From contig NZ_QZMN01000006.1 of the NCBI RefSeq assembly GCF_003702705.1, positions 62,001 through 126,000 on the forward strand: DNA of 64,000 nucleotides. Reading direction: 5' to 3'. The position numbers were made by a program, and so were the translations under genes. The stretch comes from Ornithinimicrobium cerasi (GTDB lineage Bacteria; Actinomycetota; Actinomycetes; Actinomycetales; Dermatophilaceae). Below the pieces are notes generated by a model, which ran no database searches, had not been told where the DNA came from, and worked only from the letters and a program-made list of their open reading frames with translations. Of the stretch, positions 29,644-47,766 are shown one piece after another; positions within the stretch are counted from its first letter, which is position 1; the number at the start of each line of letters is the position of its first letter.

Positions 29644-31554
29644 ATGGAGAAGCAGCCCTGGCTCCACGAGCTGGAGATCGCCGTCGACGGCCCCTCGACC
29701 GTGCTGAGCGGGCACGACGGCCAGATCGGCCGGCCGGGCACCGGGTGGTTCGTCGACGACCGACGGGTGCTGTCCGCGCTCACCCTGCACCTCGACGACG
29801 AGCCCGCCGTGGCCGTGGCCTGCGACACCGCAGGTCCCCTGTCCCGCTTCTGGGCCGCTGCCCGGCACCTGGGCGACGACGTCCCCGACCCCACGGTCGA
29901 GGTGCACCGGGTGCGGACGCTGCGCGGGGCCACGCTGACCGAGACGATCACCGTCCGCTCGCGCGCGACCGCCCCGGTGGTCACCTCGCTTCGGCTGCGG
30001 CTCGGCGGCGACGGTGCCGACCTGTCCTCGGTCAAGGTGGGCGGCGCCGACGACACCCCCGTCCTGCCCCTCGACGGCACCGGGCTCAGCTGGTCCGACG
30101 AGCGTCACCGCACCGCGGTCACCGTCGACCCGCAGCCCGAGCAGCAGACCACGGACGGCGGGGGGACGCTGCTCGTCTGGCCGCTCGAGGTCGCCCCCGG
30201 GGAGAGCGCGGCCGTCACCCTCACGCTGACCGCGGACCGCCTGTCCCCCAGCGCCTTCGACGCCGACGCCGGCTCGGGCGCGCTGGACCTGTCGGCCGTC
30301 GACGTCGGGGGCGACGCCGCGTGGCAGCGGATGATCCGGACCAACCTCACCGACCTGCGCCACCTCCTGCTGACCGACCCCCTCGCACCCGAGGACGTCT
30401 TCGCGGCGGCGGGCTCCCCCTGGTACCTCACCCTCTTCGGCCGCGACTCGATCTGGGCGGCCCGCTTCCTGCTGCCCTACACGACCCGCCTGGCCCACGG
30501 CACCCTGCGCGCCCTGGCGCGCCGGCAGGCGACCGAGGACGACCCCGCCCTGGCCGCGGAGCGGGGCAAGATCCTGCACGAGGTGCGGCGCACGGCATAC
30601 ACGGGAGGCACCCTGGACCTCCCGCCGCTCTACTACGGCACGGTGGACGCCACCCCCCTGTGGCTGGTGCTCCTCCACGACGCGTGGCGGTGGGGGCTCG
30701 AGGAGGAGCACGTCCGCGCGCTGCTCCCCGCGGCGCACGAGGCCCTGGGATGGATGGAGCGGATGTGCGGCACCTCGTCCGACGGGTTCCTGCGCTACGT
30801 CGACACGACCGGCACAGGCCTGTCCAACCAGGGGTGGAAGGACTCGGGCGACTCCATGCGACGCGCCGACGGCACCCTGGCCCCGGCGCCGATCGCACTC
30901 CTCGAGGCGCAGGCGTATGCCGTGGAGGCCGCCCTGGGGACCGCCGAGCTGCTGGACGCGCTGGGCGAGGACGGGGCCGACCGCTGGCGCACCTGGGCGG
31001 ACGACCTGACCACGCGGGTCCGGTCACGGTTCTGGGTCGGTCAGGGGCAGGACGCCTACCTGGCGATGGCGCTGGACGCGGACGGCCGAGCGGTCGACGG
31101 CGTCGGGTCCAACATGGGGCACGCCCTGGGCACGGGTCTGCTCACCGAGGAGGAGACCCGCCTCGTGGTCGACCGACTGATGCGCCCCGACATGCTGCGG
31201 GAGTTCGGGATCGCGACCCTGTCGGCCGACAACCCGGCCTACAACCCGGCCGGCTACCACACCGGCTCGGTCTGGGTGCACGACACCGCGATCGTGCTCC
31301 ACGGGCTGGTGCGCACGGGGTATGCCGAGCAGGCTCAGCTGGTCGTCGACGCCCTCGTGCGGCTCTCGTCCGCGGTGCACCACCGCTTCCCCGAGCTCAT
31401 CGCCGGCGACCCGGTCGGCTCCCGGCCGGTGCCCTACCCGGCGTCCTGCCGGCCGCAGGCCTGGTCCGCCGCGTCGGCGGCCGTGCTGGCCGCCGCGCGC
31501 GACGGACGTCAGATGCCGTCGACGAAGGTCCGGGCGACGGCTGCCGGGTCCTGA
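29644..31554 (+). CDS. Glycogen-debranching-type glycosidase (amylo-1,6-glucosidase-like)
   Basis: A 636-residue cytoplasmic protein. The N-terminal ~230 residues are the beta-rich glycogen-debranching N-domain (GTGWFVDDRRVLSALTLHLD). The C-terminal part is an (alpha/alpha)6 barrel glycoside hydrolase: SPWYLTLFGRDSIWAARFLL, NQGWKDSGDSM and NPAGYHTGSVWVHDTAI hold probable catalytic acids (Asp in GRDS; Asp/Glu in KDSGD). ATG 29644 has GGGAGG 4 nt upstream. Likely trims imported oligosaccharides; divergent from and co-regulated with the sugar importer. Its last 46 nt overlap the convergent binding-protein gene. Confidence 0.88.
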   Translation: MEKQPWLHELEIAVDGPSTVLSGHDGQIGRPGTGWFVDDRRVLSALTLHLDDEPAVAVACDTAGPLSRFWAAARHLGDDVPDPTVEVHRVRTLRGATLTETITVRSRATAPVVTSLRLRLGGDGADLSSVKVGGADDTPVLPLDGTGLSWSDERHRTAVTVDPQPEQQTTDGGGTLLVWPLEVAPGESAAVTLTLTADRLSPSAFDADAGSGALDLSAVDVGGDAAWQRMIRTNLTDLRHLLLTDPLAPEDVFAAAGSPWYLTLFGRDSIWAARFLLPYTTRLAHGTLRALARRQATEDDPALAAERGKILHEVRRTAYTGGTLDLPPLYYGTVDATPLWLVLLHDAWRWGLEEEHVRALLPAAHEALGWMERMCGTSSDGFLRYVDTTGTGLSNQGWKDSGDSMRRADGTLAPAPIALLEAQAYAVEAALGTAELLDALGEDGADRWRTWADDLTTRVRSRFWVGQGQDAYLAMALDADGRAVDGVGSNMGHALGTGLLTEEETRLVVDRLMRPDMLREFGIATLSADNPAYNPAGYHTGSVWVHDTAIVLHGLVRTGYAEQAQLVVDALVRLSSAVHHRFPELIAGDPVGSRPVPYPASCRPQAWSAASAAVLAAARDGRQMPSTKVRATAAGS

Positions 31555-32450
31555 CCCTCGCTGACCACCTCGACCATCATCGCGGTGAGGTTCTCCGTGG
31601 TGAGGGCCGCCGAGACCGCGTTGAGGGCGTCCTCGACGGCGGGGTTGACCACGTCGCTGCTGATCAGCGGCACGACGTTCTGGGCGGCGAAGAGCGACTC
31701 CGGGTCCTCGAGGACGACGAAGCTGTTCTCCTCGATGGCGGGGTCGGTGCTGAAGATGTTGGCGACGTCGACCTGGCCGTTGCGCAGCGCCTGCACCGTG
31801 AGGTTGGAGCCGGCCGCGAGCGAGCGGAACTCGGCGAACTCCAGCCCGTAGACCTCCTGCAGCCCGTCCACGCCGTTCGGGCGGCTCTCGAACTCCGGGG
31901 GCCCGCCGAGGACGAGGTCGCCGGCGTGCGGCTCGAGGTCGGCGATCGAGGCCACGCCCAGCTCGTCGGCCGTCTCCTGGGTGACGACGAGGCTGTCCTT
32001 GTCCTCGGCGTCGCTGATCTCGAGCAGCTGCAGGCCCTCGGGCAGGTTCTCCTGGGCGTCCGCGAGCACCTCCTCGGAGGAGGTCACGGTGATCTCGGGG
32101 TTGAGGTAGGTCGCGAGCCCGCCGGTGTACTCCGGGATGAGGTCGATCGACCCGTCGTCCAGCCCGGCCATGTAGGCCTCGCGGCTGCCGATGTTGAGGC
32201 GGGTGGTGACCTCGACCCCGGCGTCGGAGAGAGCTGCGGCGTAGATCTCGGCGAGGAGGACGTTCTCGGGGAAGTTGGCGGAACCGACGATGACCTCGCC
32301 ACCCTCGCCCTCCCCGGTGCCCCCGGACGTGGCGGTCCCGTCCTCGGTCGGGGACCCGGCGTCGGTGGCCAGCGGGTCGTCACCGGAGCCGCAGGCGGCG
32401 AGGGTCATGGCGGTGGTCAGGGCGAGCGCGAGTACGGGTGTGCGGCGCAT
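31509..32450 (-). CDS. Glycine betaine/choline ABC substrate-binding lipoprotein (OpuAC/ProX type)
   Basis: A 313-residue lipoprotein (lipobox LAAC near residue 20) followed by an acidic, Ser/Thr/Gly-rich linker. The binding domain begins GEVIVGSANFPENVLLAEIY, typical of OpuAC/OsmF proteins, and has IDLIPEYTGGLATYLN, the conserved binding motif. It should present a quaternary amine to the permeases. It is separated from the permease/ATPase genes by the carH-like gene and overlaps the glycosidase gene tail-to-tail by 46 nt. Confidence 0.9.
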   Translation of the reverse strand: MRRTPVLALALTTAMTLAACGSGDDPLATDAGSPTEDGTATSGGTGEGEGGEVIVGSANFPENVLLAEIYAAALSDAGVEVTTRLNIGSREAYMAGLDDGSIDLIPEYTGGLATYLNPEITVTSSEEVLADAQENLPEGLQLLEISDAEDKDSLVVTQETADELGVASIADLEPHAGDLVLGGPPEFESRPNGVDGLQEVYGLEFAEFRSLAAGSNLTVQALRNGQVDVANIFSTDPAIEENSFVVLEDPESLFAAQNVVPLISSDVVNPAVEDALNAVSAALTTENLTAMMVEVVSEGQDPAAVARTFVDGI

Positions 32451-32524
32451 GAGTCTCCTCGAGAGATCGGGATGGCGGTCCAACGGTGTCACGCCGCGGG
32501 CCGTCGGTCGAACGGTGGCGGCCC

Positions 32525-33439
32525 CTAGGAGCCGTGGAGGGTGGCTGACAGGGTGCGGGCGGAGTCCACGACCGACCCCGCCAGGATCGAGGCGCCGACG
32601 GTGTCCACGGCGGACGCGGCGGCCCCGCCGAGCATGACCGAGGTGGTGCCGCGGAGCGCTGCGGCCACCTCGGTGGCGGAGTCGACGTCGAGCGTGGTCG
32701 GCACCCCGACGACGACCGCGTCGGGCCGCAGCTGGGTGACGGTCCGCACCCAGCTGTCGGTCGGCACGTCCGGCCCGAGGTAGCGCACGTCCATCCCCTG
32801 CCGACGCAGGACGGTGGCGAACGCCAGCACGGCGAGCTGGTGGAAGGACCCCGGCGGCAGCCCGACGACGACGACCGGCGCCCCGGCCCGTCCGCCGGCC
32901 GCCTCGAAGCTGTGGGCCAGCCGCCGGTGCACCGCGCCGCTGACGAAGTGCTCCCCCGCCACGTCCAGCCGGCCCTCCGTCCAGGCCACGCCGATCTGGG
33001 TCAGGGCGGGCATCAGCCACCCGTCGACGACCTGCTCGAAGCTGCCCGCCGCGAAGGCCTGGTCCAGCGTGCGGTCCAGGAGCACGGGGTCGAGGGACTG
33101 CGCGGCCGTGACGAGCTGGTCGTCGGCGGGCCGGTCGGCCAGCGGGGCGAGCGGGGGCGCCCCCTGCGCGGACGGGACGGCCGCGCTGCCGGGCGCGCCG
33201 GCGGCGGCGAGGAGGGGCGCGTCCCGGGTCACCTCCTCCGCGGCGAGCGAGGCCGGGGTCCCGCCGGCGACGAGCTCGGCCATCCTGCTGAGACGGGCGA
33301 CGTCGGCGTCGTCGTAGAGGCGGTACTTGGAGGCCGTGCGCTCCGGCTCGACGACCGTGTAGCGTCGTTCCCAGGCGCGCAGGGTCGCGGGCGAGACGCC
33401 CGTCAGTGCGGCGACCTGCTTGACCGTGTAGCGGCTCAC
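32525..33439 (-). CDS. carH: CarH/LitR-like MerR-family regulator with B12-binding domain
   Basis: A 304-residue protein. The N-terminal MerR winged helix is TVKQVAALTGVSPATLRAWE and RRYTVVEPERTASKYRLY. A Gly/Ala/Pro linker follows. The B12 helical cap contains W153, E163 and H164 (W-x9-EH), the AdoCbl-capping motif of CarH photoreceptors. The Rossmann part has PPGSFHQLAV with His200 at the lower-ligand position; the usual Asp/Glu two residues before is Ser. GTG 33437-33439 is chosen with AGAGGAG upstream; an in-frame TTG lies 15 codons earlier. It is expected to repress in the dark as a tetramer bound to B12 and release on light. Repeats of GACAAA spaced 11 bp lie just upstream. Confidence 0.85.
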   Translation of the reverse strand: MSRYTVKQVAALTGVSPATLRAWERRYTVVEPERTASKYRLYDDADVARLSRMAELVAGGTPASLAAEEVTRDAPLLAAAGAPGSAAVPSAQGAPPLAPLADRPADDQLVTAAQSLDPVLLDRTLDQAFAAGSFEQVVDGWLMPALTQIGVAWTEGRLDVAGEHFVSGAVHRRLAHSFEAAGGRAGAPVVVVGLPPGSFHQLAVLAFATVLRRQGMDVRYLGPDVPTDSWVRTVTQLRPDAVVVGVPTTLDVDSATEVAAALRGTTSVMLGGAAASAVDTVGASILAGSVVDSARTLSATLHGS

Positions 33440-33477
33440 CGCGGCTCCTCTCGACCTGTTGTCCCCGGGAACGGGGT

Positions 33478-33501
33478 TAGACAAAGTCTAGACAAAGCCT
33501 A
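33478..33501. promoter_or_regulatory. Putative CarH-type operator (11-bp direct repeats) at carH
   Basis: Two exact direct repeats with an 11-bp period: GACAAAGTCTA at 33480-33490 and GACAAAGCCTA at 33491-33501. The 11-bp spacing matches how MerR-type CarH DNA-binding domains line up along DNA. It overlaps the stop codon of the upstream permease gene and lies about 40 nt before the carH start, in position for autoregulation. Confidence 0.65.
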
Positions 33502-34200
33502 CCGCACGCGAGCGGCGGAACTGAGCCCCGGTGACACGACGACGCGCTGCAGCAGGGCCAGCGCCTGGTCCACCAGGAGCGCGAGCGCGGCCACGGCGAT
33601 GGCGCCGCCGGCCATCTGGTCGTACTGCCGGCTGGCCTGCCCGTCGATGAGGAATCGACCCAGGCCACCCAGCCCGACGATCGCCGCGATCGTGGCCGTG
33701 CCGATGATCTGGAGCATCGCCGAGCGGAGCCCGGACATGATCAGCGGGAGCGCGCCGGGGATCTCGACCTGCCGCAGCACCTGCCCACCCGTCATCCCGA
33801 CCCCGCGCGCGGCGTCGCGGGCGGCGGGGTCGGTCGCGTCGACCCCGGCGTAGGTGCCGGAGAGGATCGGCGGGACGGCGAGCGCGACCAGCACGATGAG
33901 GGCGGGCAGCTCGAAGGCCAGCTCACCCCGCAGCCTCGGCAGCAGGAGGAGCACGGCGACGAAGAGGACACCCAGGCTCGGTATGGCGCGCACGGCACCG
34001 GTGAGGTTGACGGCGGCCCAGCGCAGCCTCCCGGTGTGACCGACCCACAGCCCGGTCGGGACCGCGATGAGGGCGGCGACGAGGAGCGCGACGAAGGAGA
34101 GCCGCAGGTGCTCCAGGGACTGGGCGAGGATGCCGCCTCGCCCCTGCCAGTTGGCGGGGTCGGTCAGCCACTCCCAGGTCATCAGGACCGTCTGGTTCAT
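33499..34200 (-). CDS. Betaine/choline ABC permease (OpuAB/OpuBB type), second permease
   Basis: A 233-residue permease with about five or six helices. The EAA-type loop is DAARGVGMTGGQVLRQVEIP, followed by GLRSAMLQIIGTATIAAIVG, a strong OpuB/ProW signature. ATG 34198-34200 overlaps the preceding stop as ATGA. Pairs with the other permease and the ATPase below in the reading direction. TAG stop at 33499-33501 lies inside the putative CarH operator. Confidence 0.9.
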   Translation of the reverse strand: MNQTVLMTWEWLTDPANWQGRGGILAQSLEHLRLSFVALLVAALIAVPTGLWVGHTGRLRWAAVNLTGAVRAIPSLGVLFVAVLLLLPRLRGELAFELPALIVLVALAVPPILSGTYAGVDATDPAARDAARGVGMTGGQVLRQVEIPGALPLIMSGLRSAMLQIIGTATIAAIVGLGGLGRFLIDGQASRQYDQMAGGAIAVAALALLVDQALALLQRVVVSPGLSSAARVR

Positions 34201-34838
34201 GCCGGGACCCTCCGGCGGGACCACGGCGTGAGCAGCGTCGCGACGAGCACGATCAGGGCGTCGAGAGCCACCGCGAGCGCCACGCACGCCACGATGCCGA
34301 CGAGGATCGGCCCCATCGCGTTGCGGTTGAACCCGTCGGTGAACAGCTGGCCCAGCTGGCTGACGCCGATGAGCGCCGCGATCGAGACGATGGACACGTT
34401 GCTCACGGCCGCCACGCGCAGCCCGGCCGCGATGACGGGGATGGCCAGCGGGAGGTCCACGGCGCCCACCCGGCGGAGCTCGCCATACCCCATGGCGGTG
34501 GCGGCCTGGCGGACCGGGGCGGGCACCGACGCGAAGCCGTCGGCGACGCTGCGGGTCAGGAGGGCGACGGTGTAGATGACCATCGCGACCAGGACGTTGA
34601 CGTCGGAGAGCACCTGGGTGCCCAGGACGAGGGGCAGCAGGATGAAGAGGGCGAGCGAGGGGATCGTGTACATGAGGCCGGTGCCGGCGATCAGCGGCGG
34701 CCCCAGCCAGCGCACCCGGGCGGCCAGCCAGCCGAGCGGCACGCTGAGGACGAGGCCGATCAGCAGCGGCAGGCCGGCGAGGTAGAGGTGCCGCAGCGTG
34801 AGGTCACCGAGCGTGGACCACGCGACCCCGCCGATCAC
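34197..34838 (-). CDS. Betaine/choline ABC permease (OpuAB/OpuBB type), first permease
   Basis: A 213-residue permease starting at GTG 34836-34838 (GTGA overlap with the ATPase stop). Helices include LAGLPLLIGLVLSVPLGWLA and IAGTGLMYTIPSLALFILLP, and the EAA loop is ATAMGYGELRRVGAVDLPLA. Homologous to the second permease; the two probably form a heterodimer. Confidence 0.9.
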   Translation of the reverse strand: MIGGVAWSTLGDLTLRHLYLAGLPLLIGLVLSVPLGWLAARVRWLGPPLIAGTGLMYTIPSLALFILLPLVLGTQVLSDVNVLVAMVIYTVALLTRSVADGFASVPAPVRQAATAMGYGELRRVGAVDLPLAIPVIAAGLRVAAVSNVSIVSIAALIGVSQLGQLFTDGFNRNAMGPILVGIVACVALAVALDALIVLVATLLTPWSRRRVPA

Positions 34839-35989: not shown

Positions 35990-36088
35990 CGGCCCACCCT
36001 AGGACGCGCGGGGGCACCGCGCTCGTCCCCGCGTGTCCGGTCGGTCCCCGCTCGTCCGCCCTCGTGCCCCCGGTCGGCCGTCACGCAG

Positions 36089-36146
36089 AACGGGCACGAT
36101 CACCCCGCTCCTGCGACGACGCGGCCTGAGGAGCGAATGTGCCCGT
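36089..36146. repeat. 58-nt palindrome-ended element, left of second AbiEi/DUF559 gene
   Basis: The element begins AACGGGCACGATC and ends GAATGTGCCCGTT, so its ends are inverted repeats (AACGGGCAC / GTGCCCGTT). The middle contains TCCTGCGACGACGCGG. A near copy lies at 37167-37225 in the same orientation with about 75-80% identity over the interior. A 12-nt perfect palindrome GTTCCCGGGAAC overlaps its right end (36145-36156). Confidence 0.85.
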
Positions 36147-36224
36147 TCCCGGGAACAGCCAGGCGGGCGGCGGCCTGTGGACAACTCCGGCCCCGAGGGA
36201 GCGGGATCAGCCAGGCTCGGGCCC

Positions 36225-37130: not shown

Positions 37131-37166
37131 CAGCGGGCACCGGGCAGGTCCTCCCGTGTTCCGCCG

Positions 37167-37225
37167 AACGGGCACGATCGCTCCGGTCCTGCGACGACAC
37201 GGAGAAATTCGCGAATGTGCCCGTT
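37167..37225. repeat. 59-nt palindrome-ended element, right of second AbiEi/DUF559 gene
   Basis: Starts AACGGGCACGATC and ends GAATGTGCCCGTT, exactly like the left copy at 36089-36146, with TCCTGCGACGAC also conserved. Same orientation as the left copy, so the pair are direct repeats whose ends are also inverted repeats. It starts 36 nt after the gene's stop codon. Confidence 0.85.
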
Positions 37226-37240
37226 GCGCGTCACACACGA

Positions 37241-38958: not shown

Positions 38959-39975
38959 TCAGCGCCGGGCGCCCCGCACGAGGGCGCCGACCCCGGCGGC
39001 CACGACCGCCCCGACCACCGCGCCGACGAGCGCCCCGGCGATCTGGGTCGCGTGCTGCGGGTCAGCCTCCACGCCCTCCATCGCGCGGCGCACGGACTCG
39101 CGGTACGGCGTCACCCCGCCCTCCGGCGCCCCCACCAGCTGCTCGAGATCCTGCTCCCGGCAGACCACCTCGTGCACCAGCGACCCGACGAGCGGCTTGG
39201 CGACCGCGGCGTCGACCGGGGTCACCAGCCCTACCCAGTGGCTCGCCAGCCACGGCGTCATCACCGGGAGGGTGAGGATGATCCGGCGCCGCTGTCCCGT
39301 CTCCTCGGCGAACCCCTGCATCATCTCCTCGTACGTCAGCACGTCGGGACCGCCGATGTCGAAGGTCCGGTTGACGTCCTCCGGGAGCCGCGCCGCGGCG
39401 GTGAGCCAGTGCAGCACGTCGTCGATCCCCACCGGCTGGATCCGGTTGCGCAGCCACTTGGGCGCGACCATCGCCGGCAGCCGGGACGTGAGGTAGCGCA
39501 GCATCTCGAAGCTCGCCGAACCCCGCCCGATGACGGTGGCCGCCTGCAGCACCGCGGTGGGCACGCCGGAGGCCATGAGCAGGTCCCCGACCTCGACCCG
39601 CGAGGCGAGGTGCGTCGACAGCTTCTCCCCCGGGGGGTGCAGGCCGGAGAGGTAGACGATCCGCCCGACGTCCTCCTGCCGGGCCGCCCGGCCGAAGCCC
39701 TCGGCGAGGTCACGGTCCCGGCGCACGAAGTCGCCGGAGCCGTCCATCGAGTGGATGAGGTAGTAGGCCACGTCGACGCCGCGCAGCGCCGACCGCAGGT
39801 CCTCCTCCCGGGTGGCGTCGCCCTGGTGGACGTCGACCTGCCCCACCCACGGGGCGTCGAGGGAGCCGGAGCGGGTCAGGACGCGCACGTCATACCCCTC
39901 CTGGAGGAGTCGTGGGACGAGCAGGCCACCGATGTATCCGGAGGCTCCGGTGACGAGGGCGGTGCGTGGGTTCAT
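38959..39975 (-). CDS. NAD(P)-binding epimerase-like protein with C-terminal membrane-like tail
   Basis: A 338-residue atypical short-chain dehydrogenase. The Rossmann motif is ALVTGASGYIGGLLVPRLLQ, then DVAYYLIHSMDG in place of the active Tyr region and RIVYLSGLHPPG. The C-terminus (ALVGAVVGAVVAAGVGALVR) is one hydrophobic Gly/Ala/Val helix, an unusual anchor. ATG 39973-39975. It lies 7 nt downstream of the CPBP gene in the same operon, controlled from the region holding the GACAAA repeats. Confidence 0.85.
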   Translation of the reverse strand: MNPRTALVTGASGYIGGLLVPRLLQEGYDVRVLTRSGSLDAPWVGQVDVHQGDATREEDLRSALRGVDVAYYLIHSMDGSGDFVRRDRDLAEGFGRAARQEDVGRIVYLSGLHPPGEKLSTHLASRVEVGDLLMASGVPTAVLQAATVIGRGSASFEMLRYLTSRLPAMVAPKWLRNRIQPVGIDDVLHWLTAAARLPEDVNRTFDIGGPDVLTYEEMMQGFAEETGQRRRIILTLPVMTPWLASHWVGLVTPVDAAVAKPLVGSLVHEVVCREQDLEQLVGAPEGGVTPYRESVRRAMEGVEADPQHATQIAGALVGAVVGAVVAAGVGALVRGARR

Positions 39976-39982
39976 GGGAGAT

Positions 39983-40714
39983 TCACCTCAGTGCGGTCAG
40001 GAGGGGCGGGAGGATGAGGAGCATGCCGGTGGACCAGGTGATGTGCGTGATGGCCGGCCCGAGGACGCCGCCGGTGACGCGCCGCTGCAGCCCGCAGACG
40101 AGACCGATGCAGACGGCTGCCAGCACCAGGAGGGGCACGCCGGAACCGACGGTGGTGAGCGCGTAGAGGACCGTCGTCGCGGCGACGGTCCAGCGCTCGG
40201 GGATCGCGGCGTACAGCGCCCCGCGGAAGAAGATCTCCTCCGCGATCCCGTTGACGACGGTGAGCACGAGCACCAGCGCGAGGGAGCCGAACCGCGCGTG
40301 GTCCAGGAGGTCGTCCACCGGCGCCCGCAGCGGCGGGACCTGCGCCACGACGAGCGCGCCGGCGAGGAAGATCCCCAGGAGCAGGCCGCCCAGCGCCAGG
40401 GACTGCACCACCGGACGGGCGTATGACGTGCCCGACCGGGTGTGCGCGCGCCCCAGGTAGAGCGGGCCGGCGAGGAGCGCCCCGACCGTCCACGTGAGGG
40501 CGAGCGCGGCGGAGCCGAGGTAGAAGCGGGGGTCACCGGGCTCGAGGCTGAGCGACCACCACAGCAGCGCCGCGCCGGCGACGAGGGTGACCGCCGAGAC
40601 GACGCGCCGCCGCCGCATGACGTGGGCGGGGTCGCGCCGGGTGCGCGGCACCTTCGTGACGAGGGAGGCGCGCAGGAACGCGCGCAGCTCGGAGACGAGG
40701 TTCACGGTGCCCAC
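39983..40714 (-). CDS. CPBP-family intramembrane protease
   Basis: A 243-residue polytopic membrane protein with about six helices. The CAAX-protease/bacteriocin-processing motifs are EEIFFR and, further on, GPAITHITW with the His. Start GTG 40712-40714; a GTG three codons inside is also possible. Transcribed with the epimerase-like gene. The putative CarH-type repeats at 40745-40781 lie 30-70 nt upstream. Confidence 0.88.
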   Translation of the reverse strand: MGTVNLVSELRAFLRASLVTKVPRTRRDPAHVMRRRRVVSAVTLVAGAALLWWSLSLEPGDPRFYLGSAALALTWTVGALLAGPLYLGRAHTRSGTSYARPVVQSLALGGLLLGIFLAGALVVAQVPPLRAPVDDLLDHARFGSLALVLVLTVVNGIAEEIFFRGALYAAIPERWTVAATTVLYALTTVGSGVPLLVLAAVCIGLVCGLQRRVTGGVLGPAITHITWSTGMLLILPPLLTALR

Positions 40715-40744
40715 TCTGCCCTGTCCCTCCGTCGGTCACACCTC

Positions 40745-40781
40745 GACAAACTTTCTTGTGACAAACCTTTGACAAAGGTTA
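40745..40781. promoter_or_regulatory. Putative CarH-type operator (GACAAA repeats)
   Basis: GACAAA occurs at 40745, 40760 and 40771; the last two are spaced 11 bp (GACAAACCTTT, GACAAAGGTTA). The right part is also a palindrome AACCTTTG-A-CAAAGGTT (40764-40780). This is a low-GC island in very GC-rich DNA, between the divergent CPBP gene (minus) and small secreted protein gene (plus). Confidence 0.6.
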
Positions 40782-40854
40782 TGCAACAGGTGCATGCTAC
40801 CGCTATCCGGTCCGACGGTGGACCGGGACCGCCCCTGAGTCGAGGAGGACTCCC

Positions 40855-41190
40855 ATGAAGAAGACCGCCATCGTCCTGGCCGCCCTGGCGCTGACCGCCA
40901 CCGCCGCCGTGCCCGCCGCCGCGAAAGGCCACAGCCGCCCCGACACCGGCTGCATGCAGGCCGGCATCGCCACCCTCCAGGGCGCCGGTCTGATGGGCGA
41001 GGTCGCCAAGAACGGCCTGCCCGTCTCGCTGGCCCTCGCGCTGGACGTGGCGCCGCGCGACCCCTCGATCGTCCCCTCGCTGCCCGAGACGCTCCCCCTG
41101 TCCGTGGTGCTGGCCGACCACCGCGCCGGTGGGGACAGCATCTTCATCTACCCGTGGACGGTCGACGGCCAGTTCGCCTGCGTGCAGTGA
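40855..41190 (+). CDS. Small secreted protein of unknown function
   Basis: A 111-residue protein with a classic signal peptide (KKTAIVLAALALTATAAVPA, cleavage near AKG). The mature ~85 residues have two Cys (DTGCMQAG and QFACVQ at the very end) that may form a disulfide. No known domain seen. AGGAGG 8 nt before ATG 40855. Divergent from the CPBP gene across the GACAAA repeats. Confidence 0.8.
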   Translation: MKKTAIVLAALALTATAAVPAAAKGHSRPDTGCMQAGIATLQGAGLMGEVAKNGLPVSLALALDVAPRDPSIVPSLPETLPLSVVLADHRAGGDSIFIYPWTVDGQFACVQ

Positions 41191-41195
41191 CCGGC

Positions 41196-41247
41196 CGACG
41201 ACGCGCCCGCTCCTCAGCCGCAGGGCTGAGGCTCGGGCGCGTCGTCG
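41196..41247. terminator. Long bidirectional terminator hairpin
   Basis: Two 24-nt arms, loop GCAG. Left arm CGACGACGCGCCCGCTCCTC plus AGCC; the right arm is its complement except for two central bases. It sits between the convergent secreted-protein gene and flavin-oxidase-like gene, so it can end both transcripts. Confidence 0.9.
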
Positions 41248-41279
41248 TGCGCCACCCCCCTCGGGGAGGCCGCCGTCCC

Positions 41280-41828
41280 TCAGGGCAGCTCGACCACCGT
41301 GGACGACCCGCCCTCGTCGTCCCCACCCTTGCGACCGGTGATCGCCTTCACGGTGCTGACGGCCGTCCCGATCAGCGACTCGCCACCCCAGTAGTGGGCC
41401 GTGTCCCCCGAGATCTTCAGCACGACGTTGTCGGGGTTCTCCGGGCCGCCGTCCATGAACATGTCGGCGCCCTTGGACCACAGCTGCTTCACGAGCGCCC
41501 GGTCCTCGATCAGGGTCGCGGTCCCGGCGAGGGAGACCCACGCCTTCATCGACGAGTACGCCACGTTCACGCGCGGGTCGGCCCGCACGTCGGCCGCGAC
41601 CGCGCTGCTGGCGCGCACCAGGAACAGCACGTCGCCGTCCTCCTCGGCGAGCTGGGTCGAGAGCGGGCGGCTGGTGAGCCGACCCTCGGGCGAGTCCGCG
41701 TCGACGGTGGTCAGCATGGCGATGTCCATGCCGGAGATCAGCGCGTGGACCTTCTCGACGTCCGCCGGGTCGTCGCTGACGCGCACCGGGTCGGAGGGGC
41801 TGGTGTCGTGGTGCTCGTGGTGGGTCAT
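41280..41828 (-). CDS. PNPOx-fold flavin-binding protein (general stress protein 26-like)
   Basis: A 182-residue split-barrel protein of the pyridoxamine-phosphate-oxidase/general stress protein 26 family. Features: MDIAMLTTVDADSPEGRLTS, RPLSTQLAEEDGDVLFLVR and VNVAYSSMKAWVSLAGTATL, the usual FMN-contact strand and loop order. The enzymes in this group bind FMN or F420; substrate unknown. ATG 41826-41828 has AAGGAG upstream. It starts back-to-back with the DUF427 gene. Confidence 0.88.
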   Translation of the reverse strand: MTHHEHHDTSPSDPVRVSDDPADVEKVHALISGMDIAMLTTVDADSPEGRLTSRPLSTQLAEEDGDVLFLVRASSAVAADVRADPRVNVAYSSMKAWVSLAGTATLIEDRALVKQLWSKGADMFMDGGPENPDNVVLKISGDTAHYWGGESLIGTAVSTVKAITGRKGGDDEGGSSTVVELP

Positions 41829-41944
41829 CGAGGAGCTCCTTCTGCAGAGGTATACCGTCGCGCCGGCAGGCGCGGACCGTCCCCTCACGCTAGCCGCGGG
41901 GGGCTGATCCGGCAGGTCGGGACAGCGAGAGGAAGGACGGGACG

Positions 41945-42463
41945 ATGACCCAGGACGAGGGGCAGGCGGTGACGGAGTCGGTGTGGGACTACCCCCGACC
42001 CCCGGCCGTCGACGGGTCCGGCACGGAGCAGGTGGTCGTCGTCTTCGGCGGCGTCGAGGTGGCGCGCAGCACCCAGGCCCTGCGCGTCCTGGAGACCTCG
42101 CACCCGCCGACCTACTACCTCCCCCGGGCCGCCTTCGCCGACGGGGTCCTGCGGGCGGCGCAGGACGCGCACACCACGTGGTGCGAGTTCAAGGGCACCG
42201 CGACCTACTGGGACCTCGTCGTCGGCAGGGTCCGCCGCCCCCGGGCGGCGTGGAGCTACGAGTCGCCGTCGCCGCGCTACCACCGCCTCCTGGGGCACGT
42301 CGCGCTGATGCCGGGGCTGGTCGACCGCGCGACCTGCCCCGAGGACGGCTGCTTCGTCGACGGTGAGCGGGTGCGGCCCCAGGAGGGCGGCTTCTACGGC
42401 GGCTGGATCACCTCGCGGGTCACCGGTCCCTTCAAGGGACCCCCCGGCACCCGCGGCTGGTAG
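41945..42463 (+). CDS. DUF427-family protein
   Basis: A 172-residue DUF427 protein. The motif ETSHPPTYYLPR is characteristic, followed by TTWCEFKGTATYWDL and AAWSYESPSPRY. Function unknown; DUF427 genes are often found near photolyase and other light-response genes. ATG 41945. Ends 7 nt before the convergent TspO-like gene. Confidence 0.88.
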   Translation: MTQDEGQAVTESVWDYPRPPAVDGSGTEQVVVVFGGVEVARSTQALRVLETSHPPTYYLPRAAFADGVLRAAQDAHTTWCEFKGTATYWDLVVGRVRRPRAAWSYESPSPRYHRLLGHVALMPGLVDRATCPEDGCFVDGERVRPQEGGFYGGWITSRVTGPFKGPPGTRGW

Positions 42464-42470
42464 CGCGCCC

Positions 42471-43274
42471 TCACGCCCCTGCCGGGACGGCCCGACCGCG
42501 ACGCACCAGGGCCAGGACGCCGAGGACTGCCACGCAGACGGCGGCGAGCGCGGCGGCATACCCGACGGTGTCGCTGCGCAGGTCGCCGACGAACCGGCCC
42601 ACCGACACCCAGGCCACCCCCCACGTCACGGCGGCGGTGAACGCGCCGCGGAAGACGCGGTCGGGGGTGCGCCCGAGCAGGTACCAGGCCAGCGCGACGA
42701 CGACGGCGAGGACGGCCAGCGTCACCAGGGTCGGCACGCGCCCGTCGGTGGGGACGCCGAGCCCGACGAGCCAGGACGCGATGTTGGCGCAGGTCGCCAC
42801 GCACACCCAGCCGAGGTAGAGGCCGAACGTCCCGGAGACGAGCACCCGCGGCGCCAGCCCCTCGTCCGGCATCCCGGCCGTGCGGCGCAGGACGAGACCG
42901 AGCGAGAGGGCGATCCCGAGGATGACGAGCACCGAGACCAGGATCCAGCCGGCGAAGACGACGAGCAGCCACAGCCCGTTGAGCGCGAGCGAGGCGGCGG
43001 CGGGCAGCCGGGTGAGCCGCGCGCGATCCGAGCGGGCGCCGTCGGGCAGCCACTGCCAGACGACGTAGCCGGCGAGGAACAGGTAGATGACCGACCAGAT
43101 CGAGAACGCCGGCCCGTGCGGCGCGATGAGGGTGGTGCTGTCCGAGAACAACCCCTCGCCCTGCTCCTCGACCCCGCCCGACCCGCCGACGAGGCCGGTG
43201 CCGACCAGGGTGCCGCCGATCCACAGCACGGCGGCGAGGGTCACGATCAGCTGGTCGCGGCGCAGGGTGCTCAT
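42471..43274 (-). CDS. Polytopic membrane protein, TspO/MBR-related
   Basis: A 267-residue protein with about seven helices. Trp-rich segments (SIWSVIYLFLAGYVVWQWLP, GLWLLVVFAGWILVS) recall tryptophan-rich sensory TspO/MBR proteins, but it is longer than the classic ~160 residues. TspO binds porphyrins and takes part in light or stress responses; here that is inferred. ATG 43272-43274 overlaps the stop of the SRPBCC gene. Last gene of the operon that begins with the DUF4397 gene. Confidence 0.75.
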   Translation of the reverse strand: MSTLRRDQLIVTLAAVLWIGGTLVGTGLVGGSGGVEEQGEGLFSDSTTLIAPHGPAFSIWSVIYLFLAGYVVWQWLPDGARSDRARLTRLPAAASLALNGLWLLVVFAGWILVSVLVILGIALSLGLVLRRTAGMPDEGLAPRVLVSGTFGLYLGWVCVATCANIASWLVGLGVPTDGRVPTLVTLAVLAVVVALAWYLLGRTPDRVFRGAFTAAVTWGVAWVSVGRFVGDLRSDTVGYAAALAAVCVAVLGVLALVRRGRAVPAGA

Positions 43275-43786
43275 GACAGGAGGCTAGCGAGGTCGGGCCT
43301 GGCGCCCCGGCGCTCCGCCGCGACCCCCATCCCCCGGACCATGGCCCGCATGACGAGCACGTGCGCCGGTAGCTCGAGCCACCACAGCAGCCGCCCGCGC
43401 CACCCGTCGGGGTGCCACTCGAGCCGCTGCTCCAGCAGGGAGGACGCGCCGTCCGGGGCAGCCACGGCCTCGTGCGTCAGGAAGGCCCGCCCGGGCATGC
43501 GCTGCTCCGAGCGCAGGGTCAGGCTCCGCCCGAGATGTATGTCGTGCACGCGCCACCCGTCCACGGGGTCCCCGGTGCGCAGCGCGCGGTCCGGCCGGCC
43601 ACGCAGGCCCGGTCCGCCCAGGAGCCGGTCCACCCGGCCGCGCACGGCCCAGAGGTGGTTCGCGGCGTACCACCCGGGGGCGCCGCCCAGGTCGGCGATG
43701 CACGACCAGGTGACATCGACGGGGGCGGCGACCCGGACCGTCCGGCGCTCGCGGAAGACGCCGTCACGGTCGGGGAGCAGGGTCAC
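43271..43786 (-). CDS. SRPBCC/DUF2867-type protein
   Basis: A 171-residue protein whose order of elements (RTVRVAAPVDVTWSCIADLG, APGWYAANHLWAVRG, GDPVDGWRVHDI) fits the START-like SRPBCC/DUF2867 fold that binds small hydrophobic ligands. No signal peptide. GTG 43784-43786 overlaps the anti-sigma stop as GTGA. Co-translated with the TspO-like gene. Confidence 0.8.
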   Translation of the reverse strand: MTLLPDRDGVFRERRTVRVAAPVDVTWSCIADLGGAPGWYAANHLWAVRGRVDRLLGGPGLRGRPDRALRTGDPVDGWRVHDIHLGRSLTLRSEQRMPGRAFLTHEAVAAPDGASSLLEQRLEWHPDGWRGRLLWWLELPAHVLVMRAMVRGMGVAAERRGARPDLASLLS

Positions 43787-44451
43787 CCGACCTCGCCACG
43801 GACGAGGCTGTCGCCCCCGTGGGCGGGGTCGCCGTCCATGTGCTCCCGGGAGATGTCGACCACGGGGAACTCCGCCAGCTCCAGCCCGGCGGGCAGGAGG
43901 TACTCGCCGGTGTCCCCGTCGAGGACGCCGAGGGTGATCATCCCGCTGGCGTCGGGCTTGAGCAGCCAGACCTCGAGGTAGCCCTCACCCGGCTGCGGAG
44001 CCGCGTCGAGCTCGACGCGCAGGCGCTGGTGGCCGTCGACCTGCACCACCTGGGCGCTGCCGGCCGGCTGCTCCTCCAGGAGCGGGGCCAGCTGGCCGCT
44101 CGCCAGCACCTGCCCGGCCCGGCCGTCGTCGGCCCCGCCCAGCAGCTCGAAGCCCGTCCACGTCACGAGAGCACCCACCGCGGCCGCGGCGAGGATCGGC
44201 AGCGCGAGCCCGCGGCCGGTCCGCCCGGCGCGACGCCGTCGGTGACGCGCGAGGTCGTCGGTGAGCTGCGGCATACCTGCGGGGTCCGGGCCTGCGGCCG
44301 CGCCCGTCGCGCGCAACCCGGCCACGATCGCCGTCCACACGTGCGGAGGGGGAGACTGCTCGACCACGCCGGCGCGGCGCAGCAGGGTCGTCGCACGGGA
44401 GTCGTCCTCGGGGTCGCCGGGACGGACGGTGGTCCTGAGCTGGTCGTTCAT
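43783..44451 (-). CDS. rskA: Anti-sigma factor (RskA-like)
   Basis: A 222-residue single-pass membrane protein. The cytoplasmic part contains PPPHVWTAIVAGLRATG, the PP.VW motif of anti-sigma-K-type factors. One helix is ALPILAAAAVGALVTWTGFE. The extracellular C-terminal domain has the RskA fold (GEGYLEVWLLKPDASGM). ATG 44449-44451 overlaps the sigma stop as ATGA. It should hold the sigma factor at the membrane until a signal triggers proteolysis. Confidence 0.88.
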   Translation of the reverse strand: MNDQLRTTVRPGDPEDDSRATTLLRRAGVVEQSPPPHVWTAIVAGLRATGAAAGPDPAGMPQLTDDLARHRRRRAGRTGRGLALPILAAAAVGALVTWTGFELLGGADDGRAGQVLASGQLAPLLEEQPAGSAQVVQVDGHQRLRVELDAAPQPGEGYLEVWLLKPDASGMITLGVLDGDTGEYLLPAGLELAEFPVVDISREHMDGDPAHGGDSLVRGEVG

Positions 44452-45059
44452 CGAGCACCTCCCATGAGCGTACGGAGCCGGGCGAGCGTCCGGGTCGTGT
44501 GGGTCTTGACGGTGCCGAGCGGCAGCTGGAGCAGCTCGGCGATCTCCTTCTGGGTCTTGTCGTGGACGTACGCGAGGAGCAGGATCTGGCGCGGCGGGTC
44601 GCCGATCCGCTCCAGCTCCTCGTAGACGGCGAGCAGGTCGTCACGGTCGACGTCCAGCCAGGCCTCCTCCGACCCGTCCTCCTCCAGGGTGCTGGGCACC
44701 TCCGCGCTGCGGTGGCGCTGGCGCAGCGAGTCGGCCACGGCGCGGCGGGTGATGCCGACCAGCCAGGCGCCGAGCGGCCCGTGGCGGGGGTCGTAGGTGC
44801 CCCTCGCGCGCCAGGCCGACAGGAACACCTGCTGGGTGACGTCGTCGGCCTCGACGGGGCCGACGGCGCGGCGGGCCAGGCCGTGCACCAGCGGGCTCCA
44901 CCGGGCGTAGGCCCGTTCGAGCGCGTCCGGCGCACCCGCCATCCACGCGTCACGGATCAGCGCGTCGTGGGCGGTCGTGTCCTGCGCCTCCCTCGAGGCC
45001 GCGTCGGCCTGGTCGCCCTCGGTCATGCGGGCCACTCTAAGAGGAGGCGCGATGGTCAT
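44448..45059 (-). CDS. sigK: ECF-type RNA polymerase sigma factor (SigK-like)
   Basis: A sigma-70 family ECF factor of about 203 residues. Region 2: DVTQQVFLSAWRARGTYDPR; region 4: KEIAELLQLPLGTVKTHTTR. ATG 45057-45059 overlaps the sortase stop as ATGA; ATG 45024-45026 is an alternative that gives the usual length. The adjacent anti-sigma gene supports the SigK/RskA assignment. Its target promoters are unknown; autoregulation of the operon is plausible. Confidence 0.9.
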   Translation of the reverse strand: MTIAPPLRVARMTEGDQADAASREAQDTTAHDALIRDAWMAGAPDALERAYARWSPLVHGLARRAVGPVEADDVTQQVFLSAWRARGTYDPRHGPLGAWLVGITRRAVADSLRQRHRSAEVPSTLEEDGSEEAWLDVDRDDLLAVYEELERIGDPPRQILLLAYVHDKTQKEIAELLQLPLGTVKTHTTRTLARLRTLMGGAR

Positions 45060-45826
45060 TGCTCAGGCACCGCCGAGATGACCAGGTTGTCGGTGTAGCT
45101 GCCGGTGCGCGGCGACCAGTCGCCGCTGCAGGTGACCATGCGCAGCACGGGGTCGCCGTCCCGGCGGAAGATCTCGTCGACGGCCAGGTCGGACTTGGCC
45201 ACCTGCTCGCCGCCGACCACCCGGTATGTCGTGCTCGTCCCGTCGTCGAGCTCGACGACGACCTCCGCACCCTCCTCGACCCGGGTGAGGTCGAGGAAGG
45301 CCCCGGGGCCGGTGGTGGTGTCCACGTGCCCGGCCACGACGACCGAGCCCGCGTCACTCCCGGGGGCCGGACCGTAGCGGTACCAGCCCGCCCGGTCCGG
45401 CTCCTCCGGGATCTCCATCTGCCCGTCCGACGCAACCCCCACACCGTCGATCTCGACCACGAGGTCGAGGGACGGGACGGAGAGACGGACGGGCGCGGCC
45501 TGCTCCTGCGCCGGGGGCAGCGCGGCCGAGGACCGGCCCGGCCCGGGGGTGGTGCTCCCCGCCGCCGGGGCAGGGGTGGGCCCCGACGGCGGAGAGCTGG
45601 TGGCGGTGGAGCTCTCCGCCACCGGGGAAGGAGCCTCTTCCTCCTCCGACGCCGGGCCGGCGACGTCGAGATCGACGGTCGAGGATCCGAAGTCCGCGGT
45701 CTGCGGCACCGGGTCCTGCAGGAGCCCGCGCACCGCCCAGCCGGCGAGGACCAGGCAGAGCAGCGTCACGGCGATCGCGACGACGCTGACCTGACGGGGT
45801 CGCCGGGGGGCGGTGCGGGGCGCCAC
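45056..45826 (-). CDS. Class F sortase
   Basis: A 256-residue membrane transpeptidase. The N-terminal anchor is VVAIAVTLLCLVLAGWAVRG; a Pro/Ser/Thr/Glu-rich linker follows. The catalytic core has His in VVVAGHVDTTTGPG, Cys in LRMVTCSGDW and Arg in SPRTGSYTDN, the class F pattern. GTG 45824-45826. It should link a surface protein to peptidoglycan; the DUF4397 protein just upstream is the obvious candidate substrate, although it lacks LPXTG. Position beside a sigma/anti-sigma pair is unusual. Confidence 0.88.
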   Translation of the reverse strand: MAPRTAPRRPRQVSVVAIAVTLLCLVLAGWAVRGLLQDPVPQTADFGSSTVDLDVAGPASEEEEAPSPVAESSTATSSPPSGPTPAPAAGSTTPGPGRSSAALPPAQEQAAPVRLSVPSLDLVVEIDGVGVASDGQMEIPEEPDRAGWYRYGPAPGSDAGSVVVAGHVDTTTGPGAFLDLTRVEEGAEVVVELDDGTSTTYRVVGGEQVAKSDLAVDEIFRRDGDPVLRMVTCSGDWSPRTGSYTDNLVISAVPEQ

Positions 45827-45829
45827 GGG

Positions 45830-46633
45830 TCAGACCCGCTCGGACCGGACGACGTAGCGACCGGCGATGGCGGCTCCGGCGACACCGGCGAGCGCGAGGA
45901 CGAGCAGCGCGTTGGTGTCCACGAGGCCACCCTGGCCGGACGGCACGCCCTCGGGCGAGCTGTGCAGGCCGTCGATGGTCTGGACCGCGAGGTCCAGGTT
46001 GCCGGCCTCCGCGGAGCCCCACGCGTAGACGATGGTGTTCGTGCCCTCGGCGAGGTCCAGGTCGGCCGGGCCGAGGACGACGTCCTCGGTGCCCGCCAGC
46101 ACCACGTCGGCCGAGACCGTGCCGGCCGGGAGGTCGAGGACCTCCTCGTTCGGGTTGGTCAGGCCCTCGATGACCGGGGTGCCACCGGCGCGGACGTCGA
46201 CGGCCGGGGCCGCAGCGGCGTGGCGGACGGTGATCCGGGCCTCGCCGGCGGCGGTCTGCGACACGTCGTTGACGAAGGCGGACAGCATCGGCGCGCCGGC
46301 CTCGTCGAGGTGCGCGGCGAGGGTGAGGTTGGCGCCGCCCGGGACCTCGAGGCCCTCGGCGGAGATGGCCGGGTCGCCGTCCTCGGGGGTCACGCCGTCC
46401 TCGTAGACGGCGATGTCGTACGTGCCGGCGGCCAGCATCATCGGGTCGGTCAGGGTGCCGGGCGCGAAGTCGGGGATGAGCTCCTCGCCGTTCACGTACA
46501 CGTCGACGGTGAGCCCGGGCACGCCGTGCAGCACCGAGACGGTCGACTCGTGGCTGTCGGCGAGGGCGGGGGCGGCCGCGAAGGCGGTGGTCGCTACGCC
46601 GGCGAGCAGGGCGATGGTGGTGGTCCTACGCAT
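45830..46633 (-). CDS. DUF4397 surface protein with C-terminal anchor
   Basis: A 267-residue exported protein. The signal peptide ends near ALADSH. Two DUF4397 modules follow (VSVLHGVPGLTVDVYVNGEE and ITVRHAAAAPAVDVRAGGTP), Ig-like beta domains related to fasciclin-associated surface proteins. The C-terminus is GLVDTNALLVLALAGVAGAA then RYVVRSERV: a hydrophobic segment and a basic tail as in sortase substrates, but without LPXTG. ATG 46631-46633 has AAGGAG upstream. First gene of the operon; CarH-type repeats lie about 80 nt upstream. Confidence 0.88.
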   Translation of the reverse strand: MRRTTTIALLAGVATTAFAAAPALADSHESTVSVLHGVPGLTVDVYVNGEELIPDFAPGTLTDPMMLAAGTYDIAVYEDGVTPEDGDPAISAEGLEVPGGANLTLAAHLDEAGAPMLSAFVNDVSQTAAGEARITVRHAAAAPAVDVRAGGTPVIEGLTNPNEEVLDLPAGTVSADVVLAGTEDVVLGPADLDLAEGTNTIVYAWGSAEAGNLDLAVQTIDGLHSSPEGVPSGQGGLVDTNALLVLALAGVAGAAIAGRYVVRSERV

Positions 46634-46711
46634 GATGTGCTCCTTGTTCCGGGGGCGGACCGGTTCCGCCCTCACCTGACACTACGGGCGTGGATGCAAG
46701 GTTGGATTCAT

Positions 46712-46732
46712 CTTTGTCCAAACTTTGTCACA
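46712..46732. promoter_or_regulatory. Putative CarH-type operator upstream of the DUF4397-sortase-sigma operon
   Basis: On the minus strand GACAAAG occurs twice with an 11-bp period (CTTTGTC at 46712-46718 and at 46723-46729 on the plus strand). The low-GC patch ATCTTTGTCCAAACTTTGTC lies between the DUF4397 gene start (46633) and the divergent SDR gene (46789). Confidence 0.62.
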
Positions 46733-46788
46733 TGTTTTTCCGGACCCCCCGTCGGGCGCCGGCGCCCACCGCCCCCTACCGTTCGACC

Positions 46789-47766
46789 ATGAGCACCTCA
46801 CCGAGCACGTCGACCCAGCCCGTGGCGCTCGTCGCCGGGGGCTCCCGGGGCCTGGGCCTGATCATCGTCCGCGAGCTGATCTCGCGCGGCTACCGCGTCG
46901 CCCTCTGCGGCCGCACCCTCGAGACCGCGCAGGAGGCCGCGCGCGAGGTGGGCGCCACGGCATACCGCTGCGACGTCCAGGACCGCGACGACGTGTTCGA
47001 CCTGGTCCGCCGGGTCGAGGAGGAGATGGGGCCGGTCGAGGTGCTCGTCCACGTCGCCGGGATCATCCAGGTCGGCCCGGCCGAGACGATGACCCTCGAC
47101 CACTTCGACGACGCCATCGGCACCATGCTCACCGGGCCGGTGCAGCTGGCCTGGGCGGTGCTGCCGGGGATGCGGGCGCGCGGGCACGGGCGCATCGGCG
47201 TCGTCACCTCGATCGGTGGCAAGGTGGCCGCGCCGCACCTGCTGCCCTACGTCGCGGCGAAGTTCGGGGCCGTCGGCTTCACCGAGGGGCTCGCCGCGGA
47301 GCTCGCCGGCACCGGTGTCACCGCCACCGCGCTCGTCCCCGGCCTGATGCGGACCGGCTCGCACGAGGGTGCGCTGTTCACCGGCGACCACGGGGCCGAG
47401 TTCGCGTGGTTCGGCACGGCGGCGTCGCTGCCGCTGCTGTCGATGGACGCCGAGCGCGCGGCCCGGCACATGGTCGACGGCGTGCTCGAGGGCAAGCCGG
47501 TCGTGCAGCTCTCGCTGATGACGCACCTCGCGACGCGCTTCCACGGGCTCTCGCCGACCCTGACGGTGCACCTCATGGGGATCATGAACCGTCTCCTGCC
47601 CTCCTCCCCCGCAGGTATGCCGTTCGCCGGCACCGCCGACACGCCCACCTCGGTCCCGGTGCCGGGTCGGGAGGCCGCCCGGCAGCTCTCGGCGGGAGCG
47701 TCGTCAGCCGTGCGCACCCTGACGACTCTCGGGCGGCGGGCGGCGGGGCGGTTCAACCAGCGCTGA
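46789..47766 (+). CDS. Short-chain dehydrogenase/reductase
   Basis: A 325-residue SDR. Cofactor motif VALVAGGSRGLGLIIVRELI; NAG-equivalent VLVHVAGIIQ; catalytic Ser in GVVTSIGGKVAAP and Tyr/Lys in LLPYVAAKFGAVGF. A C-terminal extension of about 90 residues with HLATRFHGLSPTLTVHLMG distinguishes it from small SDRs. ATG 46789-46791. Divergent from the DUF4397 operon across the CarH-type repeats, so likely part of the same response. Substrate unknown. Confidence 0.88.
   Translation: MSTSPSTSTQPVALVAGGSRGLGLIIVRELISRGYRVALCGRTLETAQEAAREVGATAYRCDVQDRDDVFDLVRRVEEEMGPVEVLVHVAGIIQVGPAETMTLDHFDDAIGTMLTGPVQLAWAVLPGMRARGHGRIGVVTSIGGKVAAPHLLPYVAAKFGAVGFTEGLAAELAGTGVTATALVPGLMRTGSHEGALFTGDHGAEFAWFGTAASLPLLSMDAERAARHMVDGVLEGKPVVQLSLMTHLATRFHGLSPTLTVHLMGIMNRLLPSSPAGMPFAGTADTPTSVPVPGREAARQLSAGASSAVRTLTTLGRRAAGRFNQR

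Follow-up and report, generated by a model that had tools for sequence, protein, structure and literature searches.

Within a 64,000-nucleotide stretch of Ornithinimicrobium cerasi DNA (contig NZ_QZMN01000006.1, positions 62,001 to 126,000; hereafter the window) lies a gene for a regulator of the CarH/LitR family, and on sequence grounds this protein very probably governs a light regulon of four or more promoters that would be repressed in the dark, including an autoactivating sigma-factor loop. We infer that CarH carrying adenosylcobalamin would bind tandem 11-bp TnnACA(AA) repeats in the dark at the promoters of its own gene, of the CPBP-epimerase genes and a divergent small-protein gene, of an operon encoding DUF4397, sortase, extracytoplasmic function (ECF) sigma, anti-sigma, DUF2867 and TspO-like proteins (together with a divergent gene for a short-chain dehydrogenase/reductase, SDR), and of the carotenoid operon. 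Light would break the Co-C bond and release CarH, and the genes would be turned on. At the DUF4397 operon the putative operator abuts an ECF-type promoter that is probably used by the sigma factor of the same operon, and a CarH tetramer bound there would cover the -35 element. In the dark CarH would keep the autoactivating sigma/anti-sigma loop shut; the loop would open on light together with release of sigma from its anti-sigma factor. Sensors of this type are known, while the target set and the locking of the sigma promoter look new. Among the matches listed from the openly accessible literature (titles and abstract openings), there was no CarH in Ornithinimicrobium and no CarH operator at a DUF4397/SigK-like operon. 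A preliminary description of the window had proposed a CarH regulon at three of these promoters; the proposal is supported by the family and signature residues of the regulator, by the operator grammar, by the sites of relatives and their co-occurrence with CarH, and by the link to carotenoid genes.

The regulator and its putative tandem sites

By sequence, the regulator is a CarH/LitR-type B12 photoreceptor. The 304-residue protein exceeds the cut-offs of the Pfam models MerR_1, B12-binding_2 and B12-binding, and its top PDB match is CarH from Thermus thermophilus (TtCarH; 5c8d, E = 5e-26). The closest named relatives of the gene come from Ornithinimicrobium pekingense and O. sp. F0845. Residues W153, E163, H164 and His200, put forward earlier as those of adenosylcobalamin photoreceptors, are all correct when numbered from the GTG at 33439. 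The W-x9-EH cap motif to which the first three belong is also found in all 40 distinct homologues, the number left from 47 rows once 7 duplicates are removed. A light signature of four elements, GxxW, EH, GxxH and GxxxP, has been described (PMC11796333; this and the other papers are cited as far as their available excerpts go); it is complete in the regulator (GVAW, EH, GSFH and GPDVP) and in 37 of the 40 homologues. The same genome also codes for a cobalamin adenosyltransferase of PduO type. Two other assignments were ruled out. Class V LitR, a class of Micrococcales, does not apply because it is described as having no B12-binding domain (PMC9758184) and both B12 domains are present here; a CarA-type, B12-independent protein does not apply because the Trp of W-x9-EH, which CarA is described as lacking (PMC9304148), is present.

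Pairs of GACAAA with an exact 11-bp period stand at 33480/33491 (+), at 40760/40771 (+) and at 46724-46729 and 46713-46718 (-), as described before except for a one-base shift of the minus-strand coordinates. The check suggested with that description, a genome-wide count, returned three exact copies of GACAAA-N5-GACAAA in 3.83 Mb, and all three lie at the named promoters. When one mismatch is allowed, an overlapping match at 46724 and a site located on a different contig are added, and the reversed pattern, used as a control, gives one match in the same genome. With up to two mismatches the window holds four matches (two of them overlapping); 100 shuffles gave 0.33 +/- 0.59 and in no case as many as four. 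Across 32 genomes of the genus, 99 matches with at most one mismatch (overlaps included) were counted against 22 for the reversed control. The exact pair occurs 22 times in these genomes, and 21 copies share their stretch with carH, crt or DUF4397 genes; the remaining one (G154) is separated by about 3.4 kb from an epimerase match and by 5 kb from a CarH match that is distant (32%). The 38 sites used to train a position matrix came from stretches of other genomes, the genome of the window being left out. Its best scores in the window range from 25.4 at carH through 38.3 at DUF4397 to 43.0 at CPBP, and all ten window matches above 8 fall at the three promoters. Twenty first-order Markov sequences of 64 kb yielded 9.6 at most.

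Published CarH operators consist of tandem 11-bp nnnnTnnACAn repeats, three or four in number and some of them degenerate, which often overlie the -35 or -10 element (PMC9304148), and the sites in the window fit this form in part or whole. The carH site reads TAGACA/TAGACA. That of CPBP reads GTGACA/TTGACA/TATGCA, with an extra GACAAA at 40745 that lies 15 bp ahead of the copy at 40760 and outside the 11-bp register. The DUF4397 operator is made up of GAAAAA (46735-46740, minus strand), GACAAA and GACAAA in 11-bp steps, the first being an in-register third copy, and reads GTGACA/TGGACA with a degenerate third repeat. Full nnnnTnnACAn repeats number two at carH, one plus partial ones at both CPBP and DUF4397, and four at crt. 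At carH the repeats follow directly after a possible -10 element found by eye (TAGGCT, minus strand 33496-33501), and the crt promoter has the same layout; both suit a repressor. By eye, 11-bp repeats also precede carH in several relatives of the same genus. A genus-wide search for three TnnACA repeats was dropped as a regulon census, because several of its matches resemble TCCACA clusters that we take to be of DnaA type.

The fourth promoter belongs to the carotenoid operon, which lies about 70 kb past the end of the window on the same contig. Its first gene is an Idi-CrtE fusion with near full-length matches in 12 other genomes of the genus. Upstream of this gene, four perfect tandem TnnACA repeats end 28 bp before the start codon (matrix score 27.9), and four such repeats were reached in none of 200 mononucleotide shuffles. 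By eye, the crt promoter of G162 has two repeats and that of G170 has one and a near-repeat. We also compared stretches of at most 20 kb from 20 relative genomes, chosen for pattern or CarH matches, so that the presence of a site in them is no independent test. The genes crtE-crtB-crtI occur in nine (G149, G152, G153, G155, G157, G163, G166, G167 and G171), each with a site upstream of crtE, and they lie directly beside carH in five (G149, G153, G155, G166 and G171). DUF4397 is found in 16 of the 20 stretches and CarH in 13; sortase, ECF sigma, anti-sigma, TspO-like, PNPOx (11 stretches), CPBP and epimerase genes recur alongside them. Among 16 relative stretches having a CPBP match, six carry a pair with at most one mismatch directly ahead of it.

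A further CarH-like pair at L197:4226-4254 (minus strand; G000:C1 about 272,226-272,232; matrix score 29.5), a candidate site, lies ahead of a small open reading frame and a gene that we take to be FHA-like; the nearby sites of relatives precede a different gene. In four relatives (L043, L050, L053 and L065, near 1501-1560), a CarH-like pair lies beside a homologue of the gene near the L197 site, and the gene behind these pairs is presumably a DUF2236-type oxygenase. Near the crt operon, L195:16235-16885 (minus strand) encodes a stand-alone protein that binds cobalamin by its domain and has W-x9-EH without a helix-turn-helix domain; matches to the B12 part alone occur in other genomes of the family.

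The DUF4397 promoter

The putative ECF-type element beside the DUF4397 operator, TGAATCC-N17-CGTAGT, is conserved in the genus; neither it nor the carotenoid operon figures in the preliminary description. All 17 aligned DUF4397 upstream regions have TGAATCC followed at 17 bp (16 in one) by CGTAGT, and GAATCC-N16..18-CGTA is present in 19 of 25 DUF4397 promoters. The strict pattern TGAATCC-N16..18-CGTA, which weaker sigma targets would escape, occurs once in the genome of the window, at the DUF4397 operon, and in 19 of the 32 genus genomes, where its 26 matches comprise 19 DUF4397 promoters and seven positions elsewhere. In 17 of the 19 CarH-bearing promoters with a GAATC element, the gap between the pair and TGAATCC is 2-3 or 13-14 bp and thus keeps the 11-bp register. 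Because the operon encodes, in adjacent genes, an ECF sigma factor (regions 2 and 4) and an anti-sigma factor with an RskA C-terminal domain, the element is probably the promoter of the operon's own sigma factor. It had been suggested that the sigma/anti-sigma pair would extend the light response; since the strict pattern occurs only once, at its own operon, the sigma factor would amplify the response instead.

The link between site and CarH was tested independently by comparing upstream regions across the 25 genus genomes with a close DUF4397 orthologue (at least 351 bits), of which 21 bear CarH (a match of at least 100 bits). The pair was scored on both strands of the 230 bp upstream of DUF4397, with a cut-off of 10 of 12 letters. 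It is present in 20 of the 21 CarH-bearing genomes and in none of the four CarH-less ones, G047, G104, G139 and G165 (Fisher 4e-4, kinship ignored). The one CarH-bearing genome that falls short, G162, has a score of 9 and, by eye, degenerate repeats at 11-bp steps. When scoring is confined to the 60 bp ahead of the GAATC element, 18 of the 19 CarH-bearing promoters having this element reach 10, and G047, in which CarH and the pair are absent and the ECF promoter is retained, scores 9.

Genes under and near the sites

The coordinates of the genes and elements are collected in Table 1. The sigma factor scores 84 bits with the NCBIfam SigK subfamily model NF007228, below its cut-off of 226. The preliminary description had listed TspO-like, SRPBCC and DUF427 genes as fitting light-response clusters. 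The TspO-like assignment is weak, the Pfam score staying below its cut-off here and in five of seven relatives scanned, with no match in the other two. The SRPBCC gene encodes a protein that Pfam calls DUF2867, present in one of the 20 relative stretches. DUF427 could not be upheld as part of the regulon: the intergenic region 41888-41945 that it shares with the PNPOx-like gene has no matrix match, and it is present in only two of the 20 stretches. The matrix scan of the window found no operator for the PNPOx-like gene itself, and around the photolyase (L196) there was no match above 8 in 10 kb. Homologues of the small protein are divergent from CPBP in L073, L075, L078 and L081, with a site of at most one mismatch in between in three of these four.

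In the window carH separates opuCB from opuAC (opu stretch 31509-35989, minus strand), and it lies outside the opu genes in all six relative stretches that have both carH and opuCA (L075, L078, L079, L080, L082 and L087). A search around carH-opuAC found neither a terminator nor a sigma-70 promoter. Given the short gap after the carH stop codon and the lack of a detected terminator, read-through may bring opuAC under the same switch as carH.

Table 1. Genes and putative control elements of the window, with the first gene of the carotenoid operon
Feature	Position	Strand	Evidence or remark
OpuAC glycine-betaine binding protein	31509..32450	-	PF04069; starts 75 bp after carH stop
carH/litR, MerR-HTH and cobalamin-binding regulator, 304 aa	32525..33439	-	GTG start, GAGAGGAG upstream
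Putative CarH operator at carH	33480..33496	+	Two tandem TAGACAAA repeats; matrix 25.4
NAD(P)-binding epimerase-like protein	38959..39975	-	PF13460/PF01370; same direction as CPBP
CPBP (Rce1-like) intramembrane protease	39983..40714	-	PF02517, 48.7 bits
Putative CarH operator, CPBP/epimerase (-) and small secreted protein gene (+)	40745..40776	+	Best matrix score 43.0
Small protein, signal-like N-terminus	40855..41190	+	No Pfam match
PNPOx-like protein	41280..41888	-	PF16242; in 11/20 relative stretches
DUF427 protein	41945..42463	+	PF04248
Membrane protein, weakly TspO-like	42471..43274	-	PF03073, 20.6 bits (cut-off 24 not reached)
DUF2867 (SRPBCC-like) protein	43271..43786	-	PF11066, E = 1e-18
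Anti-sigma factor, RskA C-terminal domain	43783..44451	-	PF10099, 39.6 bits, over cut-off
ECF sigma factor, SigK-like	44448..45059	-	Sigma70_r2/r4; TIGR02937 over cut-off
Sortase, class F-like	45056..45826	-	PF04203; NCBIfam class_F_sortase 132.8 bits, below cut-off 166
DUF4397 protein, signal-like N-terminus, hydrophobic C-terminus	45830..46633	-	First gene of operon; PF14344, E = 8e-32
Putative ECF -10 CGTAGT	46681..46686	-	17 bp after TGAATCC
Putative ECF -35 TGAATCC	46704..46710	-	2 bp downstream of last GACAAA
Putative CarH operator, DUF4397 operon (-) and SDR gene (+)	46713..46740	-	Matrix 38.3 and 30.9
SDR oxidoreductase, divergent from DUF4397 operon	46789..47766	+	PF00106 (longer frame)
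Isopentenyl-diphosphate isomerase fused to CrtE-type prenyltransferase, one frame	L195:9030-10694 = G000:C63	-	

Alternative explanations and known systems

A number of observations weigh against a CarH light regulon of this extent, and most of them bear on one of three alternatives. Most of those on the protein itself favour a regulator that binds the sites without acting as a light switch, either as a cobalamin sensor or independently of B12 like CarA. The residue after the Trp, equivalent to H132 of TtCarH, is Thr, and His occupies this position in none of the 40 homologues. The lower axial His is kept, although in SFHQLA, that is SxHxxA against the classic D/ExHxxG/P (most relatives have xxHxLG), and the NCBIfam CarH equivalog model NF052513 gives 118 bits, below its cut-off of 400. 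In TtCarH, H132 becomes the second axial ligand after light, and the H132A variant mostly remains tetrameric in the light (PMC10442372). Nevertheless, we regard the loss of the light switch as quite improbable. The four signature elements are all present, as is the Trp that is missing from CarA, and His at the H132 position is found in many but not all CarH proteins and is not a defining residue (PMC9304148, PMC11796333). CtMerR, with Arg at this position, is light-responsive all the same (PMC11796333), and the carotenoid genes of relatives carry the sites.

Other observations concern the sites. At carH just two repeats are clean, and third repeats have a degenerate sequence; in none of 13 relatives, one of which (G149) is matched only in its CrtE part, does the four-repeat crt site reach significance against shuffles; and TCCACA-type words overlap what we take to be DnaA-like boxes. 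One could ask whether most of the GACAAA pairs belong to -35 hexamers of sigma-70 promoters (TTGACA) or are the sites of another regulator unrelated to CarH. TTGACA does occur within the CPBP site, AT-rich words are expected at promoters, and G093, a genome outside the genus that is 94% complete, has the repeats at its DUF4397 promoter and no CarH match. Set against this are the tandem 11-bp register and the genome-wide uniqueness of the pairs, the position of the repeats after a possible -10 at carH and crt, the resemblance to published CarH operators (PMC9304148), and the absence of the pair from CarH-less genomes of the genus, among which G047 keeps the ECF promoter. An origin of the pairs unrelated to CarH is thus highly improbable.

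The comparison of DUF4397 promoters has weak points of its own. Its cut-off of 10 of 12 was chosen after the scores were known, and at 9 the counts become 21 of 21 against 1 of 4; the genomes compared are related; and G165, one of the CarH-less genomes, is 74% complete. The ECF element is altered in G149 and absent in G170, G162, G165, G104 and G139 (6 of 25), and G127 scores 8 within 60 bp of the element, its scoring pair lying on the other strand. Outside the genus, where 21 of 22 DUF4397 upstream regions were usable (L193 was left out for its cut flank), co-occurrence is poor: only four reach 10 of 12, namely G053 with 11 on the forward strand and G093 (11), G066 (10) and G015 (10) on the reverse strand. 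GA[AG]TCC-N15..19-CGTA was found in none of these 21 regions, several of which show by eye a GTGCATCC...GGAA(G)TA(G) element. Because 17 of the 21 lack a pair and G093 has a pair without CarH, which speaks against a strict tie to CarH outside the genus, the CarH lock looks particular to this lineage. In L173, L180, L182 and L187, from other genera, an 11-bp pair (on the reverse strand in three) lies at the DUF4397 promoter near the different ECF-like element GTGCATCC, which may be an arrangement in parallel; one of these genomes has no CarH match.

The pair-less promoters outside the genus, and the location of the site between two divergent genes, would also suit a narrower regulon in which CarH controls only carH, crt and CPBP, the repeats at the DUF4397 site serve the SDR gene and the ECF promoter is not under CarH control. 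The register kept between pair and TGAATCC in 17 of 19 promoters speaks for a role at the ECF promoter, and none of the 16 relative stretches with DUF4397 has an SDR match adjoining the site. We therefore consider the narrower regulon unlikely, and favour a CarH light regulon that includes the sigma operon. A more specific version of this regulon is evenly poised in our view: a two-key dark lock on a self-activating sigma factor, in which light and an anti-sigma signal would both be needed and carotenoid defence would be tied to DUF4397/sortase surface remodelling, all without a second axial histidine.

If the proposed regulon is true, actinobacterial B12-photoreceptor control would extend from carotenoids to an operon of sigma and anti-sigma factors, sortase and a surface protein. 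The promoter design, a photoreceptor operator abutting the -35 element of an autoregulated ECF promoter, is directly testable, and G047, which is without CarH and repeats and retains the ECF promoter, offers a natural control. A CarH clade without the H132 ligand would also bear on the mechanism by which CarH leaves DNA in the light.

Compared with CarH/LitR of Thermus thermophilus and Bacillus megaterium, the domain order, W-x9-EH, the lower His, the 11-bp TnnACA operator and the carotenoid link are the same, but here Thr replaces H132 and the putative target set is wider, including an ECF sigma operon. The pair of an ECF sigma factor and an RskA_C anti-sigma factor resembles SigK-RskA, as we take that system to be named, although the sigma factor here falls below the SigK cut-off and stands under a putative CarH operator. 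Class II LitR of Pseudomonas (PplR/PmlR) similarly belongs to a light cluster that includes an SDR alongside proteins whose function is unknown, but one of the two B12 domains is missing there; the light-inducible genes in that case include photolyase, ufaM and folE (PMC9758184), whereas no matrix match above 8 lies in the 10 kb around the photolyase here. A precedent is the LitR-LitS-crtE system of Streptomyces coelicolor, in which a B12 photosensor likewise acts on an actinobacterial sigma gene: LitR is described as a promoter of litS expression, and crtE is transcribed by sigma-LitS (PMC12705666). In O. cerasi, by contrast, a SigK-like sigma factor and an RskA-type anti-sigma factor are part of a DUF4397/sortase operon, and the putative sigma promoter, in its strict pattern, occurs once, at that operon and not at crt.

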